Assembly: GCF_001434835.1 (NCBI RefSeq)
Contig: NZ_AZDV01000001.1
Coordinates: 1-64,000, forward strand
Reading direction: 5' to 3'
DNA: 64,000 nt
From: Levilactobacillus acidifarinae DSM 19394 = JCM 15949
GTDB lineage: Bacteria; Bacillota; Bacilli; Lactobacillales; Lactobacillaceae
Below, one piece after another: positions 55,200 through 61,155 of the stretch; position 1 is the first letter of the stretch, and every line of letters begins with the position of its first letter. The notes beneath the pieces are model-generated. The model saw only the letters and a program-made list of their open reading frames with translations. It was not told where the DNA came from and searched no databases. The position numbers and the translations under genes are program-made.

Positions 55200-55272
55200 G
55201 GCCCTATAGCACAACTGGATAGGGCACTCGCCTCCTAAGCGAATGATCCCGGTTCGAGTCCGGGTGGGGCCA
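55200..55272 (+). tRNA. tRNA-Arg (anticodon CCU)
   Basis: The 73-nt cloverleaf has acceptor GGCCCTA with TGGGGCC (one G-T pair), D arm with AACTGGATAGGGC, anticodon stem TCGC/GCGA around loop CTCCTAA (anticodon CCT, reading AGG), and T arm CCCGG-TTCGAGT-CCGGG. CCA is not encoded. This tRNA is a common phage and island integration site, but no integrase or duplicate 3' end follows here. Confidence 0.95.
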
Positions 55273-55342: not shown

Positions 55343-55684
55343 ATGGCAACAGCTAGCGCGCTGAAAAGCGCCAGTCAGATTTTTGCGTCCAACGCGATTC
55401 ATCAGGAGGCCAGTTTTTTAAACTCGACCTGGGCCTACGCCGACGATGCCAGTTTAGTGGCCCCGTTGGCCCAACTCGCTACGGAGTTTCCGGGGACCAA
55501 CGTTTACACATTTGCAATTCGGGATTTCGACCGGTTAACGCAGGCGTACTTGAAGCAACTCTACAAGGAAACCAGTGCCGGGGCCGTGGGAGCCGCCGAA
55601 TTTGTGGCGACCCACACCGTGATGATCGTGACGGGGAACCGCAACGGTCGCAACCGGCCCATCATTAATATTTTATTTCAGTAA
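55343..55684 (+). CDS. Conserved-looking hypothetical protein
   Basis: The 113-aa protein has GGGAGGA 8 nt before the ATG and ends in a terminator. It reads ALKSASQIFASNAIHQEASF, TEFPGTNVYTFAIRDFDRLT and AEFVATHTVMIVTGNRNGRN. There is no signal peptide or membrane span, and the composition is Ala/Thr-rich with alternating helix and strand. I do not recognise the family. It stands alone between the tRNA gene and the aromatic operon leader. Confidence 0.7.
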   Translation: MATASALKSASQIFASNAIHQEASFLNSTWAYADDASLVAPLAQLATEFPGTNVYTFAIRDFDRLTQAYLKQLYKETSAGAVGAAEFVATHTVMIVTGNRNGRNRPIINILFQ

Positions 55685-55692
55685 CTGGATGT

Positions 55693-55727
55693 CTCCCCCG
55701 TTATCGTTGGATGCGGGGGCTTTTTTA
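55693..55727 (+). terminator. Intrinsic terminator after the hypothetical gene
   Basis: CCCCCG pairs with CGGGGG and is followed by CT6, about 10 bp after the stop codon. Confidence 0.7.
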
Positions 55728-55759
55728 TCCCGATTCATAGAAAAATTCAAAAAAACCAT

Positions 55760-55788
55760 TTGACAAGTCTATCAAAGACTCGTAAACT
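55760..55788 (+). promoter_or_regulatory. Promoter of the aromatic operon leader
   Basis: TTGACA and TAAACT are 17 bp apart; this is the best -35 box in the window. It predicts a ~315-nt leader before the transketolase gene. Confidence 0.8.
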
Positions 55789-55832
55789 CAGTGTCATTAA
55801 GTAAACATTAATTTTCTAAGGAGATTTTAATT

Positions 55833-55892
55833 ATGCGAACCTGGCCCCGACAAAAACAAAATCGATTTTATTATTACTGGTTTCTGCAGTAG
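55833..55892 (+). CDS. Leader peptide rich in aromatic codons
   Basis: The 19-residue frame MRTWPRQKQNRFYYYWFLQ starts at ATG 55833, 9 nt after AAGGAG (55818-55823), and ends at TAG 55890-55892. Codons 12-17 are TTT TAT TAT TAC TGG TTT, so seven of 19 residues are aromatic, covering all three end products of the chorismate pathway. It is the only gene between a consensus promoter and a terminator that precedes transketolase-aroE-aroF-aroB. This is the form of an attenuation leader peptide: ribosomes stalling on Phe, Tyr or Trp codons would change RNA folding downstream. The +1 frame reads like a signal peptide, but has no start or ribosome site. Confidence 0.75.
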   Translation: MRTWPRQKQNRFYYYWFLQ

Positions 55893-55965
55893 TGTCGGCA
55901 CCTGGTGCGGGCACTACGTCCGCATCGATGGTGACCAGTAATTTTCGTATAATTAAGTTCTTACG

Positions 55966-56053
55966 GAAAAGTCATATCGGTGTTTTACCAATCACTGTGT
56001 GACTTTTCTCGTGGCGGAGACCCACCGTTTATTAACGGTACCGGTCCACCGTT
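55966..56053 (+). promoter_or_regulatory. Alternative hairpins in the aromatic operon leader
   Basis: GAAAAGTCA (55966-55974) pairs with TGACTTTTC (56000-56008). Then AACGGT (56034-56039) can pair either with ACCGTT upstream (56024-56029) or with ACCGTT downstream (56048-56053), so the two hairpins exclude each other. They lie between the leader peptide and the terminator. I could not identify a decisive antiterminator pairing with the terminator arm. Confidence 0.5.
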
Positions 56054-56057
56054 ACCG

Positions 56058-56091
56058 AAGCGTCCACAGTTTAGTCTGTGGGCGCTTTTTT
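56058..56091 (+). terminator. Attenuator-type terminator before the transketolase gene
   Basis: AAGCGTCCACAG pairs with CTGTGGGCGCTT around TTTAGT and is followed by T6. It ends 7 bp before the AAGGAG of the transketolase gene, so it lies within the operon leader, after the leader peptide. Confidence 0.85.
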
Positions 56092-56110
56092 GTCCCTCAA
56101 GGAGATGGCA

Positions 56111-58126
56111 ATGATGCAAAAAAGGGAATTTGATGAGACCGACCAATTAGCAATTAATAATTTACGGGTGTTGAGTATCGATATGATCGAACGGGCTCAG
56201 TCGGGACATCCCGGGTTACCGTTGGGCACGGCCCCGTTACTGTGGGTGTTATGGAGCCGACATCTACGGCTTGATCCGCGCCACCCGCAGTGGGTTAACC
56301 GCGACCGTTTCGTCCTTTCCGCCGGTCACGGGTCCGCTATTCTGTATAGCCTGTTACACCTGAGTGGCTTTGACCTCAGCATGACCGATCTCAAGCAGTT
56401 TCGCCAGTTCGGTAGCCGCACGCCGGGACATCCCGAATACGGCAAGGTGCCCGGCGTGGACGCCACGACCGGACCACTGGGGCAAGGCTTAGGGATGGCC
56501 GCGGGGATGGCTCTCGCCGAGCGGCACCTCGCATCCCAGTACGGGGCGACCGTCAGTGACCACTTTACGTACTGTCTGGTGGGTGATGGTGATCTGATGG
56601 AGGGGGTCTCCCACGAAGTCGCCAGTTTTGCCGGTCACCAACGGTTAAATAAATTGATTGTTTTATACGACGACAACGCCGTTTCGCTCGACGGCCCCAC
56701 TAGTCGTTCGACGACGACCGACGTCCCCCAGCGCTTCCGGAGCTACGGCTGGGACGTTCAGGTGGTGACCAACGGGGCGGACCTAGTGGCCATCGATGCC
56801 GCGGTGATCCGTGCGCAGCAGAGTGACCGGCCGTCGTTAATTGACGTGAAGACCGTCATTGGCTTTGGAGCCCCCGGGGCGGGGACCAATCAGGTGCACG
56901 GCAAACCCCTGGGGGCAGCGGGCCGCCAGCAACTCTGTAAGGTGCTGCACTGGACAGCACCGGCCTTTACCGTTTTGCCGGCGGTAGCCGAGCGGGCTCG
57001 GCAGGCCATCACGTTGCGGGGGCACCGGGCTTATCACCGTTGGCGAACCCGGCTCACGACCTTAACGCCCCAGCAACGGCGCCAATTCGCTCGCGTCTTA
57101 GCGGGCGAGTTACCGGCTACCCTGGGGGCTAATCTCCCCAGCTACGACCAGGGCGCCGCGGCGTCACGGCAAACTAGCCATGCCGTCATCCAGCAATTAG
57201 CCGCGCAATTACCCGAACTAGTGGGGGGCTCCGCGGATCTGGCGAGTTCTAACCGTACCACGCTGGCGTCCGACCAGTTGATGACGCCCCAAGCCCCCGA
57301 TCAACGCAACCTGGCTTTTGGGGTCCGGGAGTTTGGAGAGGGGACGTTGCTGAACGGCTTAGCCTTGCACGGGGGCTTACGGGTTTTCGGGAGTACCTTC
57401 CTGGTGTTCTCCGATTACCTGCGGGGAGCCATTCGCTTGGCGGCCTTACAGCACCTTCCCGTGACCTACGTCTTCACCCACGATTCGTTAGCGGTGGGGG
57501 AAGACGGTCCGACCCATCAGCCCATCGAACAGCTCATGAGTTTACGGGCGATTCCCAACGTGACGGTGATTCGGCCGGCCGACCCCAACGAGACCGTTGC
57601 GGCGTGGTGGCAGGCCATTAACGCCACGGATCACCCCACGGTGTTGGTGCTGACCCGCCAGGCCTTGGCCGTTTTACCACATACCCAGCAATTGGCCTTG
57701 ACCGGTGTAGCCCGTGGGGGGTACGTCCTATCCCCGCAACGGGGGCGGCAGCCCGGTGGCATTTTGATGGCTAGCGGGTCGGAGGTCACGCTAGCCTTGC
57801 AGGCCCAACAACGGTTAGCCGCCCTGGGGCACGACGTGAGCGTCGTGTCACTGCCGTCACTGGATCAGTTTCACCAACAGTCGAAGGCGTACCAAGACCA
57901 GGTCTTACCCCCGCAGGTGCGTCGGCGCGTGGCCATTGAACTTGGAACCACGCAGGGCTGGGAGCGCTACGTCGGACTGGACGGCGCCGTCGTGGGCATC
58001 GATCATTTCGGGGCCAGTGGCGCCGCGGTTGACGTTTTGACCGCCAACGGCTTTACGGTGGACCACCTCGTGACGGCCTACTTGCGTACGGGAAGGGTCA
58101 CCCCTTTACAACTAAACGTCATTTAA
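56111..58126 (+). CDS. tkt: Transketolase
   Basis: The 671-aa TPP enzyme exchanges two-carbon units between sugar phosphates and supplies erythrose-4-phosphate. ATG 56111 follows AAGGAG; earlier in-frame starts fall in the terminator. Seen are AINNLRVLSIDMIERAQSGH, the TPP motif region VGDGDLMEGVSHEVASFAGH...YDDN, and the pyrimidine-domain Glu and His in REFGEGTLLNGLALHGG and DSLAVGEDGPTHQPIEQL. It heads an operon with aroE, aroF and aroB, so its main task is probably E4P for DAHP synthase in a phosphoketolase-type metabolism. GC content is high. Confidence 0.95.
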   Translation: MMQKREFDETDQLAINNLRVLSIDMIERAQSGHPGLPLGTAPLLWVLWSRHLRLDPRHPQWVNRDRFVLSAGHGSAILYSLLHLSGFDLSMTDLKQFRQFGSRTPGHPEYGKVPGVDATTGPLGQGLGMAAGMALAERHLASQYGATVSDHFTYCLVGDGDLMEGVSHEVASFAGHQRLNKLIVLYDDNAVSLDGPTSRSTTTDVPQRFRSYGWDVQVVTNGADLVAIDAAVIRAQQSDRPSLIDVKTVIGFGAPGAGTNQVHGKPLGAAGRQQLCKVLHWTAPAFTVLPAVAERARQAITLRGHRAYHRWRTRLTTLTPQQRRQFARVLAGELPATLGANLPSYDQGAAASRQTSHAVIQQLAAQLPELVGGSADLASSNRTTLASDQLMTPQAPDQRNLAFGVREFGEGTLLNGLALHGGLRVFGSTFLVFSDYLRGAIRLAALQHLPVTYVFTHDSLAVGEDGPTHQPIEQLMSLRAIPNVTVIRPADPNETVAAWWQAINATDHPTVLVLTRQALAVLPHTQQLALTGVARGGYVLSPQRGRQPGGILMASGSEVTLALQAQQRLAALGHDVSVVSLPSLDQFHQQSKAYQDQVLPPQVRRRVAIELGTTQGWERYVGLDGAVVGIDHFGASGAAVDVLTANGFTVDHLVTAYLRTGRVTPLQLNVI

Positions 58127-58150
58127 ACGAACTTACGAGAGGATGATTTG

Positions 58151-59053
58151 ATGATTAACGGCAAAACACAATTATTTGGCTTCATCGCGCATCCGGCGCA
58201 CCACAGTCGGTCGCCACGTATGCATAACTTAAGCTTTCAACATTGGGGCATCAATGCCCGGTACTTAGCCTTTGACGTCGCGCCCGGTAATCTACCCGCC
58301 GCAATCGCCGGTATTCGGAGCATGGGAATCGCGGGGGTCAACTTATCGATGCCGTTCAAACAGACCGTGGTGCCGTTACTCGACGACTTAACGCCCCGGG
58401 CCCAACGGATCAACGCTGTCAACACGATCAAAAACGATCACGGCCGCTTGATTGGCGACAGTACCGATGGTGCCGGGTTGTTTCAAAACCTCCAGTCCCG
58501 GGGCTTAAACCTGCGGGGCAAACGGGTCGTGATTCTGGGTGCCGGCGGGGCGGGTAAGGCCATCATCGCCGCGTCACTGGATTACCGGTTGGCCCAAGTC
58601 GACGTGTTCAAGCGCCAGACGACCAGCTACCCGGCCGTTGCCACCTGGGTAACGGGGTTAGCCCAAAACACCACCACGCCGTTACGCCTGCACCCGTACG
58701 AGGCCGTTCAGACCATGCAAGACCTAGTCGCGCAGGCCGATTTGATCATCAACGCCACCAGCGTGGGGATGACCACGGCCGGGGTCCCGGTCCCCACGAG
58801 CGTGTTAGAGCAGTTACATCCCGGCCAGGTCGTTTACGACGTGATCTACCAACCCCTGGAAACCGAGTTTTTGGCTTTGGCTCGGCAAAGGGGCTGTGAA
58901 ACCCATAACGGTTTAGGCATGTTGATCTGGCAAGGCGCCTTAGCTTTCCAATTCTGGACGGGAAAACCGATGCCGGTCCCCGCCGTTGAGGCCGATCTGT
59001 TAGCCAGTCTGACCAACGAGACGCCGGCGACTAACCAACGTCACGCCATGTAA
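58151..59053 (+). CDS. aroE: Shikimate dehydrogenase
   Basis: The 300-aa enzyme reduces 3-dehydroshikimate to shikimate. ATG 58151 follows GAGAGGA. The substrate motif HSRSPRMHNLSFQHWG, the catalytic Lys in VNLSMPFKQTVVPLLDDL, NTIKNDHGRLIGDSTDGAGL, and the NADP loop VVILGAGGAGKAII are present. The MPFK variant instead of VPHK is typical of the AroE/YdiB branch of lactobacilli, so quinate/shikimate activity is possible. It lies 24 bp after tkt and 16 bp before aroF. Confidence 0.93.
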   Translation: MINGKTQLFGFIAHPAHHSRSPRMHNLSFQHWGINARYLAFDVAPGNLPAAIAGIRSMGIAGVNLSMPFKQTVVPLLDDLTPRAQRINAVNTIKNDHGRLIGDSTDGAGLFQNLQSRGLNLRGKRVVILGAGGAGKAIIAASLDYRLAQVDVFKRQTTSYPAVATWVTGLAQNTTTPLRLHPYEAVQTMQDLVAQADLIINATSVGMTTAGVPVPTSVLEQLHPGQVVYDVIYQPLETEFLALARQRGCETHNGLGMLIWQGALAFQFWTGKPMPVPAVEADLLASLTNETPATNQRHAM

Positions 59054-59069: not shown

Positions 59070-60065
59070 ATGATTATTATTTTAAAACCGACGACCGCAG
59101 CCGCCATGCAAGCGAAATTGATTGCCCAATTTGGGACCACTCACGAGGTCTTTACCCACGCTAACCGCATCGCGATTCAGGGTCTCACCCCCGCAGAACT
59201 CCCGGCAGATGTTCGGGCGGCCAGTACCGACCTCTTGACCGACGTGCCGGCAGCCGTGCAAAGTAGTCGGCTGTTACACCCCGAGGACACGATCATTCGG
59301 ACGCCCCATAGCGTCATTGGTGGCAATCATTTTGTGATGATGGCCGGGCCGTGCTCCGTCGAGAGTGCGGGACACGTCGAACGAATGGCCGAGGTTGCTA
59401 AGCAAGGTGGTGCCACCGTGGTCCGCGGGGGGGCCTTCAAGCCACGCACGTCGCCGTACTCTTTCCAGGGATTGGGGGAAGAAGGCCTACGGGATCTCCG
59501 AGCCGCGGCCGACCAGAACGGCCTGGACATGATCACCGAAGTCATGGATGACGAACACGTCGCAATGGTTGCGCAATACACCGACATCTTTCAGATTGGG
59601 GCTCGTAACATGCAGAACTTCTCGCTGTTAAAGGCCGTGGGACGGACCCGGATTCCGGTCGCCTTGAAACGGGGGATGTCGGCCACGATTGACGACGTGT
59701 TGAACGCCGCCGAATACATTGCCGCCGGTGGCAATCACCAGATCATGCTACTGGAACGGGGAATTCGAACGTTTGATAATAAATACACCCGTAACACCTT
59801 TGACCTGGGGGCCGTGCCGGTCTTACAGGAGCTGACCCATTACCCGGTCATTGTCGATCCCAGTCACGCGGTCGGCACCTGGGAATTGGTCACGCCGATG
59901 GCCATGGCCGGCGTGGCGGCGGGCGCCAGTGGAATGATCGTGGAGATTCACGACGACCCCACCCACGCGTTCTCCGATGGGCCGCAAGCGTTGAAACCCA
60001 AGACCTACCTGAAGATGGCCAAACAGGCGTTTCAACTGCACGATTTAGTCCAGAGTTGGGCGTAG
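59070..60065 (+). CDS. aroF: 3-deoxy-7-phosphoheptulonate (DAHP) synthase, type I-beta
   Basis: The 331-aa enzyme condenses PEP with erythrose-4-phosphate, the first step to chorismate. Residues 1-75 form a ferredoxin-like regulatory domain (MIIILKPTTAAAMQAKLIAQ) as in feedback-inhibited Thermotoga-type enzymes; the barrel holds MAGPCSVES, RGGAFKPRTSPYSFQGLGEE, QIGARNMQNFSLLKAVG, LKRGMSAT and VDPSHAVGTWELV. Metal ligands (Cys, His, Glu, Asp) are present. Its co-substrate is made by the first gene of the same operon. Confidence 0.96.
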   Translation: MIIILKPTTAAAMQAKLIAQFGTTHEVFTHANRIAIQGLTPAELPADVRAASTDLLTDVPAAVQSSRLLHPEDTIIRTPHSVIGGNHFVMMAGPCSVESAGHVERMAEVAKQGGATVVRGGAFKPRTSPYSFQGLGEEGLRDLRAAADQNGLDMITEVMDDEHVAMVAQYTDIFQIGARNMQNFSLLKAVGRTRIPVALKRGMSATIDDVLNAAEYIAAGGNHQIMLLERGIRTFDNKYTRNTFDLGAVPVLQELTHYPVIVDPSHAVGTWELVTPMAMAGVAAGASGMIVEIHDDPTHAFSDGPQALKPKTYLKMAKQAFQLHDLVQSWA

Positions 60066-60075
60066 GAGGGCGAAG

Positions 60076-61155
60076 ATGACAACGATTCCAGTCACGACCG
60101 CGGCGAAAAGTTACGCGGTCAACATCGAAACGGGCCTGTTAGTTCGGGTGGGGACCGAACTGGCTAAAGTTTGGTCACCCCGTCAAGTCGCCATTGTGAC
60201 CGATACCAACGTGGGACCGCTGTACGCGCAGCAGGTCCGTGAGCGACTGACGGCGGCCGGATTTCGGGTGACCGTCCTGACGGTTCCCGCCGGGGAAAGC
60301 AGTAAGAGTTGGGCCCAAGTGATGCGGTTGATCGACGCGTTAAGTGCTGCTCAGTTGACTCGTAGCGATGGCGTCCTTGCGTTGGGGGGCGGGGTCGTGG
60401 GGGATTTAGCGGGCTTCGTGGCCGCCATTTACCTGCGGGGCATCGCCTTTGCGCAGGTGCCCACATCGTTGTTGGCCCAGGTCGACAGTTCGGTCGGCGG
60501 CAAGACCGCCATTGATTTGCCCACCGGTAAAAACTTGGTCGGGAGCTTCTACCAACCCGACGTGGTGTTGATCGATCCCCAAACGCTGACCACGTTACCG
60601 CCACGCATGTTGGTGGAGGGCTACGGGGAGATCCTCAAGTGTGCGGCGCTAGTGGGGAGTGACTTCTGGGCCTTGGTTCAGACGGTCGCCCAACCGGCGG
60701 ACATTCTCGCGCAGGCCGCCCCGTTGATTCGGCACAGTATCGCCTTTAAGGCGCGGGTGGTGATGGCCGACGAAAAGGAGGGCGGTCAACGTCAACTCTT
60801 AAACTTTGGGCACACCATCGGGCACGCCGTCGAGCTTTGGGGGCGGGGCCGTTACATGCACGGGGAGGCCGTTGCTATTGGCCTGGTGCAAGTCGCCCGG
60901 CTCTTCGCCGCTCAGGGGCTGATGCCCGCCGAGTTGACGAACCAATTACGGGAACGGCTAATGGCCGTGGGGTTACCGGTTGAATTTCCGGTGGATCTGA
61001 CGACGACGGACCTCTTGGCGGCCATGCACCACGATAAGAAGATTCACGATCAAGCCCTCACCTGGGTCTACCTAACGGCGATTGGACAGCCCGCGATGCA
61101 CGCGGTTCCGTTAGCCAACTTAGCTACCTGGATTGCTCCGGTGACGGCTAAATGA
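60076..61155 (+). CDS. aroB: 3-dehydroquinate synthase
   Basis: The 359-aa NAD- and zinc-dependent enzyme closes DAHP to 3-dehydroquinate. Motifs: VAIVTDTNVGPLYAQQV, PAGESSKSWAQVMRLIDAL, ALGGGVVGDLAGFVAAIYLR (NAD loop), QVPTSLLAQVDSSVGGKTAI, and the Zn ligands in LLNFGHTIGHAVELWG and GRYMHGEAVAIGL. aroF ends 10 bp upstream with GGAGGGCG between. Later pathway genes (aroA, aroC, aroK) are not in the window. Confidence 0.96.
   Translation: MTTIPVTTAAKSYAVNIETGLLVRVGTELAKVWSPRQVAIVTDTNVGPLYAQQVRERLTAAGFRVTVLTVPAGESSKSWAQVMRLIDALSAAQLTRSDGVLALGGGVVGDLAGFVAAIYLRGIAFAQVPTSLLAQVDSSVGGKTAIDLPTGKNLVGSFYQPDVVLIDPQTLTTLPPRMLVEGYGEILKCAALVGSDFWALVQTVAQPADILAQAAPLIRHSIAFKARVVMADEKEGGQRQLLNFGHTIGHAVELWGRGRYMHGEAVAIGLVQVARLFAAQGLMPAELTNQLRERLMAVGLPVEFPVDLTTTDLLAAMHHDKKIHDQALTWVYLTAIGQPAMHAVPLANLATWIAPVTAK

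Follow-up and report, generated by a model that had tools for sequence, protein, structure and literature searches.

A candidate ribosome-mediated attenuator with a run of aromatic codons before the aromatic amino acid operon of Levilactobacillus acidifarinae, and its relatives in Lactobacillales

We analysed a window of 64,000 nucleotides (contig NZ_AZDV01000001.1 of assembly GCF_001434835.1, positions 1 to 64,000) from Levilactobacillus acidifarinae DSM 19394 = JCM 15949, in which an operon of the common aromatic pathway is preceded by a short leader open reading frame (ORF) and a putative transcription attenuator, all on the forward (+) strand. The leader region consists, in order, of a sigma-A-type promoter TTGACA-17-TAAACT (55760-55788; -35 at 55760, -10 ending at 55788, 10/12 consensus matches), a Shine-Dalgarno site AAGGAG (55818-55823), a leader ORF of 19 codons encoding MRTWPRQKQNRFYYYWFLQ* (55833-55892 with the stop included, ATG at 55833 and TAG ending at 55892) and a terminator (56057-56091). 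These are followed by the genes for transketolase (tkt; 56111-58126, TIGR00232), shikimate dehydrogenase (aroE; 58148-59053, ATG at 58151, TIGR00507), DAHP synthase (59070-60065, TIGR01361) and 3-dehydroquinate synthase (aroB; 60076-61155, TIGR01357), each above the cut-off of its family. Six successive leader codons, TTT TAT TAT TAC TGG TTT (55866-55883), encode Phe-Tyr-Tyr-Tyr-Trp-Phe, the end products of the pathway under control, and are the presumed sensor. The terminator hairpin (56057-56088, -21.6 kcal/mol) runs into TTTTTT, and between the end of this T run at 56091 and the AAGGAG (56099) of tkt, the first gene of the controlled operon with its ATG at 56111, there are 7 nt. A simple terminator pattern scan of 55700-56200 found none, and therefore the terminator call rests on the fold and on conservation. 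The arrangement is thus that of a short ORF with its own ribosome site between promoter and operon and of an intrinsic terminator before the first structural gene; the original prediction had read promoter, AAGGAG, 19-codon ORF with the FYYYWF run and terminator 7 nt before the tkt ribosome site from the bare letters, and all of them were confirmed.

A Shine-Dalgarno-led ORF with six consecutive aromatic codons is beyond chance expectation, the run of six being the longest among the 119 Shine-Dalgarno-preceded ORFs of 8-40 codons in the window and the longest run in 60 Markov-1 windows (mean 257 such ORFs) being 2 to 4. Control of the operon by a T-box or by another RNA that binds tRNA or a metabolite would be in keeping with the 33 T-box matches of the source genome (7 over the cut-off), found before e.g. 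pheS- and trpS-like genes (names by eye). However, none of these 33 lies on the contig of the window, the sole Rfam match of the window at the gathering threshold was a tRNA, and at the leader nothing convincing was found up to E 10, neither a T-box nor a Trp_leader, Phe_leader or His_leader family match, so that we regard such control as very improbable. A match to the Rfam trpB ncRNA at 55965-56097 (19.7 bits, cut-off 59) was taken as chance.

To place the leader among its relatives, we sampled 397 Lactobacillaceae genomes, 149 of which carry aroB at E<=1e-20, and took 40 aroB loci from these by score and genus spread, picking the leader by eye among the listed ORFs. A short ORF with an aromatic run was present before the first operon gene in 33 of the 40 loci. 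The runs included FYYYWF, YYYYWF, YFYFWF, FSYYW, RYYWF, FYSYW, YYAWYAF and YYAWY, with FSYYY(Y) without Trp in two leaders, and hence the variants are aromatic as well. Codons vary silently or by exchange of Tyr and Phe, and the flanking residues vary. Among the 34 leaders (these 33 and that of the window) Trp stands near the leader end in 32, a Shine-Dalgarno-like site is present in 31, and in 23 a TTGACA is found no more than 75 nt from the leader ATG. The original prediction had named conservation in relatives of the ATG, the aromatic run with third-position changes and the terminator as support, and across genera these are kept.

Within the genus of the window (35 genomes) strong aroB matches were restricted to G000 and G033 (G and L numbers denote genomes and loci of our samples), with twelve other genomes giving weak ones (<=35 bits); DNA searches in the genus returned few relatives, and protein and covariance-model searches were needed. 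G024 (L004) has a diverged leader, MTTWTARQSKRYYSWFQ, before an aroE-like gene without tkt and aroB, and G034 (L005) has kept promoter, terminator and aroE with no leader ORF seen. Both sites have the same helicase-tRNA surroundings and represent stages of decay within the genus. In the window, a 113-aa ORF without NCBIfam or Pfam match (55343-55684) sits between the tRNA gene (55200-55272) and the leader, and G034 has no ORF of at least 70 aa at that place.

The leader RNA may be described as eight segments, a-0-b-d-e-f-g-h, with two exclusive pairing states. Three hairpins after the leader ORF, b:d, e:f and g:h, were found in each of the 34 leaders (centres hand-set in two), and RNAalifold on 21 of them returned, unprompted, the termination set a:d', b:d and e:f. 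Arm a (55873-55881), within the Tyr-Tyr-Trp-Phe codons, pairs with d' (alignment columns 21-29/91-99, 99.5% of cells paired, two pairs with double changes), and the last base of the Tyr codon that precedes Trp varies in step with its partner, being C-G in 15 and U-A in 6 sequences. A second, exclusive set of 0:b, d:e and f:g was first noted by eye. Arm 0 (55889-55902), which starts at the stop codon and is backed by covariation, the mispairing test described below and geometry, pairs in this antitermination set with the 3' part of arm b (55897-55917), whose 5' part pairs with d. Arms d (55920-55936) and d' (55934-55942), together 55920-55942, pair with b and a for termination or with e for antitermination; b, d and d' are supported by covariation and mispairing. 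Arm e (55965-55982; fold, covariation and mispairing) is the 5' side of e:f, which would act as a first terminator in those relatives that have a U run after it, and arm f (55993-56008; mispairing) is the 3' side of this hairpin. The terminator before tkt is formed by arm g (56057-56069) and by arm h with the T run (56076-56091), both supported by fold and mispairing.

The termination set (a:d', b:d, e:f; 31 pairs over 21 leaders) has 95.5% of cells paired and 68 cells with double changes against a shuffle mean of 21.1 (0/500 shuffles reaching this), the number of pairs with a double change being a weaker indicator (15 against 11.0 in shuffles, 10/500). In the same alignment, 0:b and d:e together (15 pairs) have 92.5% of cells paired and double changes in 23 cells, where shuffles average 7.1 (0/500). 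The original prediction had found no clear antiterminator capturing a terminator arm; one does exist, as 55994-56008 of arm f pairs with 56057-56070 (arm g) in the last step of a relay of seven overlapping pairings. The competing antiterminator is tied to the leader codons by exclusive pairings, of which 0:b and d:e covary and 0:b, d:e and f:g pass the mispairing test. The mutually exclusive AACGGT/ACCGTT hairpins that had earlier been proposed are present in the letters, AACGGT once (56034) and ACCGTT twice (56024, 56048), but this repeat (56024-56053) lies in the linker between arms f and g and is not kept in the nearest relative L. zymae (L109), and it was rejected as the switch.

In the mispairing test, each arm was matched with its own partner and with partners from other species and the duplex energies were compared, using 5000 permutations and three leader sets: 16 aro leaders (one per genus), 11 of 18 leaders of other genes and 33 of 67 leaders from the order (one per genus), the last two sets being described below. 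In the 16 aro leaders the own/foreign energies (kcal/mol) were -16.1/-10.2 for a:d', -14.0/-7.9 for 0:b, -26.7/-13.6 for b:d, -15.8/-11.5 for d:e, -19.9/-12.3 for e:f, -18.0/-11.3 for f:g and -24.5/-10.8 for g:h; for all seven pairings 0/5000 permutations reached the observed mean, against 425-4398/5000 for ten controls. As windows were centred on the strongest hairpins, the results for b:d, e:f and g:h are partly circular and a:d', 0:b, d:e and f:g are the freer tests. The leaders of other genes, which had been found with a model holding only a:d', b:d and e:f and thus without 0:b, d:e and f:g, gave 0, 2, 0, 6, 0, 0 and 0 of 5000 for a:d', 0:b, b:d, d:e, e:f, f:g and g:h, respectively. The order-level leaders gave 0, 0, 0, 5, 0, 0 and 0 of 5000 with smaller energy gaps (d:e -14.5/-13.6); their arms were called automatically by a rule tightened before the test, a looser one having taken f:g for e:f, and at least L252 is miscalled.

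Taken together, the comparative evidence suggests that the common aromatic pathway is controlled here by a ribosome-mediated transcription attenuator, a reading to which we assign a probability of roughly 0.88, with one leader serving all three aromatic amino acids as originally predicted. When Phe-, Tyr- and Trp-tRNAs are charged, the ribosome would reach the stop codon and cover arm 0, so that b:d (with a:d' after the ribosome departs), e:f and the g:h terminator before tkt would form and transcription would end. When any one of Phe, Tyr or Trp is short, the ribosome would stall within the FYYYWF run, covering arm a and leaving arm 0 free; 0:b, d:e and f:g would then form, neither e:f nor g:h would, and the operon would be read. 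Comparison across genomes shows the conserved aromatic coding, the seven pairings with covariation and the placement before aromatic genes, and from these we infer leader translation, stalling, the direction of response and the kinetic order of folding. Folding with a ribosome mask fits the early steps, as 0:b forms before d is made in 33/34 leaders with the stall one codon before the last Trp/Tyr, in 26/34 with the last Trp/Tyr codon in the A site and in 32/34 without a ribosome. The aminotransferase leaders of genus g13 (L142, L144, L145) have neither arm 0 nor arm b, and their arm d shares sequence with the final leader codons and the stop; the sign would be kept there although two steps are gone, because a ribosome at the stop codon would block d:e directly.

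Several observations weigh against this reading. Seven of the 40 aroB loci showed no such leader by eye: L092 is truncated, the leader of L107 is rich in Tyr but of another kind, L110 forms part of a longer operon, and none was seen in L084, L087, L088 and L095, the weak ORFs that our rule listed for L088 and L095 having been set aside. Further, the 149 aroB genomes stand against just 89 matches upstream of aroB of the covariance model R1 described below, a gap due partly to divergent leaders, L098 and L105 among them, that R1 does not detect. Three controls of the mispairing test were low, b:f at 9/5000 in the 11 leaders of other genes and a:f at 1/5000 and a:e at 51/5000 at the order level, which may reflect likeness between arms that share a partner. 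The first terminator is doubtful in the window because e:f is followed there only by CTTTTC. With the stop codon in the A site 0:b formed before d in 0/34 leaders, a result partly built into the mask over arm 0, and in the window 0:b formed under one mask only (4.5 pairs). The original prediction had proposed folding with the ribosome footprint in place as a check; at equilibrium the window RNA gave no switch and b:d won under every mask. Over the 34 leaders the mean number of d:e pairs was 0.8 without a ribosome, 4.3-5.5 under stall and 1.8 at the stop, b:d still exceeded d:e under stall in 27 and 25 of the 34, and the full RNA was dominated on average by e:f and g:h. As there is no switch at equilibrium, the choice must be kinetic, which is usual for attenuators. 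The same equilibrium folds, which on average give the terminator under every mask, would suit a constitutive intrinsic terminator with an accidental ORF and no regulation, but the aromatic run, the antiterminator and the alternative pairings recur and covary over many genera and track aromatic genes, leaving this account with hardly any likelihood.

Attenuation by a leader peptide being the preferred reading, we looked at how far the element extends beyond aroB operons with R1, a covariance model started from the window locus. R1 gave 109 matches in 105 of the 397 family genomes, covering 20/40 genera, and in the source genome itself one strong match, the window leader, with the next at E 1.3. 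In 89 of the 109 cases aroB follows on the same strand within 12 kb, and the other 20 were all read. Eighteen of them precede other aromatic-type genes, namely a pyridoxal phosphate (PLP) aminotransferase followed by a D-2-hydroxyacid dehydrogenase (8), TrpX-like transporters (6), an MFS transporter (3) and aroC-aroA (1). One is a remnant (L146 in G197) in which the leader MQKLLAKQSNRFYYYWFIQ is intact, the b:d region is deleted and an epimerase-like gene (by eye) lies downstream; it looks like the fossil of a lost operon. The last (L161, E 9.9e-4) has no aromatic leader and was taken as false. Ten downstream proteins were scanned with NCBIfam, six of them also with Pfam, and the rest were named by similar N-termini; aroC and aroA were above cut-offs, and the TrpX-like proteins (NF041285, 324 and 346 bits) and aminotransferases (NF005588, 559 and 550 bits) were below theirs, that is, similar and not certified.

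In the order beyond this family, R1 detected three leaders, two of them before aroE and one before a TrpX-like gene, and a second model, R2, was built with these; a:d' was omitted from R2 because MAFFT shifts its register in transporter leaders. R2 matched 253 of 395 Lactobacillales genomes (E<=0.01), or 62/80 genera, and the element, which the original prediction had described in a lactobacillus, is thus one member of a family spread over many Lactobacillales. We read 67 R2 loci, mostly strong matches, of which 40 were picked from those listed highest and 27 came from 22 selected genomes; L303 and L314 were dropped at contig ends, and L319 and some weaker matches lay outside the reading. By blastp the next gene was TrpX-like in 45 loci, aroE in 15, an aminotransferase in 2 and aroB-like (E 1e-15), DAHP synthase, aroC or MFS in one each, and in one it encoded an amino acid binding protein of another family (Pfam). 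In total, the gene after the leader resembles aromatic biosynthesis, aminotransferase or TrpX-like transporter genes in 65 of the 67. The leader of L317 is doubtful in spite of its TrpX-like gene, and the R2 matches L331 (E 0.002) and L332 (E 0.007), which have no aromatic leader, were taken as false.

Most of the 67 order-level leaders end like QLNNYYFSYFR, with a QLN-like triplet in 52 and Phe/Tyr-Arg within the last six residues in 61. Such similar endings in many leaders (...QLNNYYFSYFR*) are a feature of arrest peptides and would fit a mechanism on the model of TnaC, in which the aromatic residues act as nascent peptide and the cause of ribosome arrest is the peptide itself or free Trp, Tyr or Phe and not uncharged tRNA; arrest at the stop under plentiful amino acids would also give the same sign of response. 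In the aro leaders, however, the run is followed by quite different residues (LQ, Q, T, IK, SL, SK or none) and Tyr, Phe and Trp interchange, and the ending that is fixed across the order falls on arms a and 0, which are bound to pair. We therefore hold nascent-peptide arrest to be improbable, and favour stalling on the aromatic codons for want of charged tRNA.

Trp is present in most aminotransferase leaders (exceptions L159 and L328) and in none of the 15 aroE leaders of other families. TrpX-like genes of L302 and L310 (genus of the window), L301 and L306 have leaders with a Phe-only run (HLNNQFAFSFFFR), a TrpX-like gene of the source genome (L208, name by eye) follows a T-box, and TrpX-like paralogues may carry different aromatic amino acids. 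Aminotransferase genes with their own aromatic leaders were found at L142-L145, L152, L153, L158, L159, L308, L309 and L328. A D-2-hydroxyacid dehydrogenase-like gene follows the aminotransferase in the first eight of these (L142-L145, L152, L153, L158, L159), a possible phenyllactate route. R2 matched 7 genomes outside the order in a sample of 299 from the class, and of the six read (G894 was left out) four appeared real by content and two false. The real ones are G848, before tkt and an aminotransferase (L329, L328), G737, before a TrpX-like gene, and G875 and G884, before DAHP synthase. G875 also has a match before pheA (L325; prephenate dehydratase, PF00800), whose leader MSNTYMQTQSNTFFFSDFR has a Phe-only run. 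The presence of this leader type outside Lactobacillales hints at old origin or transfer.

Of 40 scanned loci (L250-L289 and others), 19 have a match to Rfam family RF02863, sRNA_2410, overlapping the leader, for instance at L255:198-389 and upstream of aroE. The window itself gave no match to RF02863 (family threshold 61 bits), and since only the related loci match, its kinship with that family runs through the models R1 and R2. Srn266 in L293 is a separate element some 1.3 kb away from the leader. It seems reasonably likely, with less assurance than for the attenuator itself, that one homologous leader-peptide attenuator, with a relay of seven pairings and up to two terminators, is the common aromatic-regulon switch of Lactobacillales and some other Bacilli. 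It would have spread over tkt/aroE/aroF/aroB, aroC-aroA, pheA, aminotransferase with D-2-hydroxyacid dehydrogenase, TrpX-like ABC and MFS transporters, with the codons rewritten for the amino acid of each gene, standing in for T-boxes, and enterococcal sRNA_2410 would be its terminated leader. If so, the codons would predict transporter substrates, Phe/Tyr and not Trp for most leader-controlled TrpX-like proteins, and a 20-codon peptide would tell which amino acid controls a transporter or an aminotransferase. The leader also offers an RNA with a defined two-state relay that is open to codon and arm swaps.

In common teaching, leader-peptide attenuation belongs mainly to Proteobacteria and the T-box to Firmicutes; much of Lactobacillales seems to rely on a single leader-peptide family for the aromatic amino acids, beside T-boxes in the same genome. 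In the his operon attenuator of enterobacteria, hairpins A:B, C:D and E:F alternate with B:C and D:E, and as at our locus the stopping place of the leader ribosome would set a relay of alternating hairpins. The his attenuator masks His codons in arm A, whereas here the deciding arm is 0, which starts with the stop codon, and the codons pair with d'; unlike his, the relay here includes an extra hairpin, e:f, which is a terminator in some relatives, and three amino acids would be sensed. The trp and phe leaders of Proteobacteria share the leader peptide with regulatory codons, the choice between antiterminator and terminator and the aromatic operon, but have four arms and respond to one amino acid, and the window matched none of them in Rfam.

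The original prediction, in regarding leader-peptide attenuation as largely foreign to Firmicutes, holds only in part, as it is already in print for Listeria, Staphylococcus aureus and Bacillus. Listeria ilv (Rli60) has been tested and S. aureus ilv is backed by mutants; these are leader-peptide attenuators of Firmicutes as here, but serve branched-chain amino acids with, as described, a single terminator/antiterminator choice (PMC5864092, PMC5794164). For Bacillus hisS*/hisZ a leader-peptide attenuator has been predicted in print. The candidate uORFC-13-1, an aroF leader of Acholeplasma (24 sequences, from Acholeplasma and environmental samples only), is likewise a predicted ORF before aroF with at least one Phe codon and a terminator, and the available part of its description mentions no relay (PMC8632094). 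T-box leaders (RF00230) do this job in many Firmicutes, whereas our locus has an ORF with aromatic codons and no T-box match. TrpX of Streptococcus suis is described as being under a T-box (PMC9382623). Among the open-licence PMC papers that our searches listed, no title or beginning of an abstract names this family, and prior notice is possible. A further counterpart is sRNA_2410 of Enterococcus, a 195-nt RNA with two transcripts on Northern blots (PMC5593968), which is the same element under another name but is filed as an sRNA, with no leader or target gene named in the available text (PMC5593968). It is probably the terminated leader and not a trans-acting sRNA, its two transcripts would fit two terminators, and judging from the names of the Rfam families Enterococcus and Streptococcus would be among the carriers of the leader, which gives a possible function to this Rfam sRNA.

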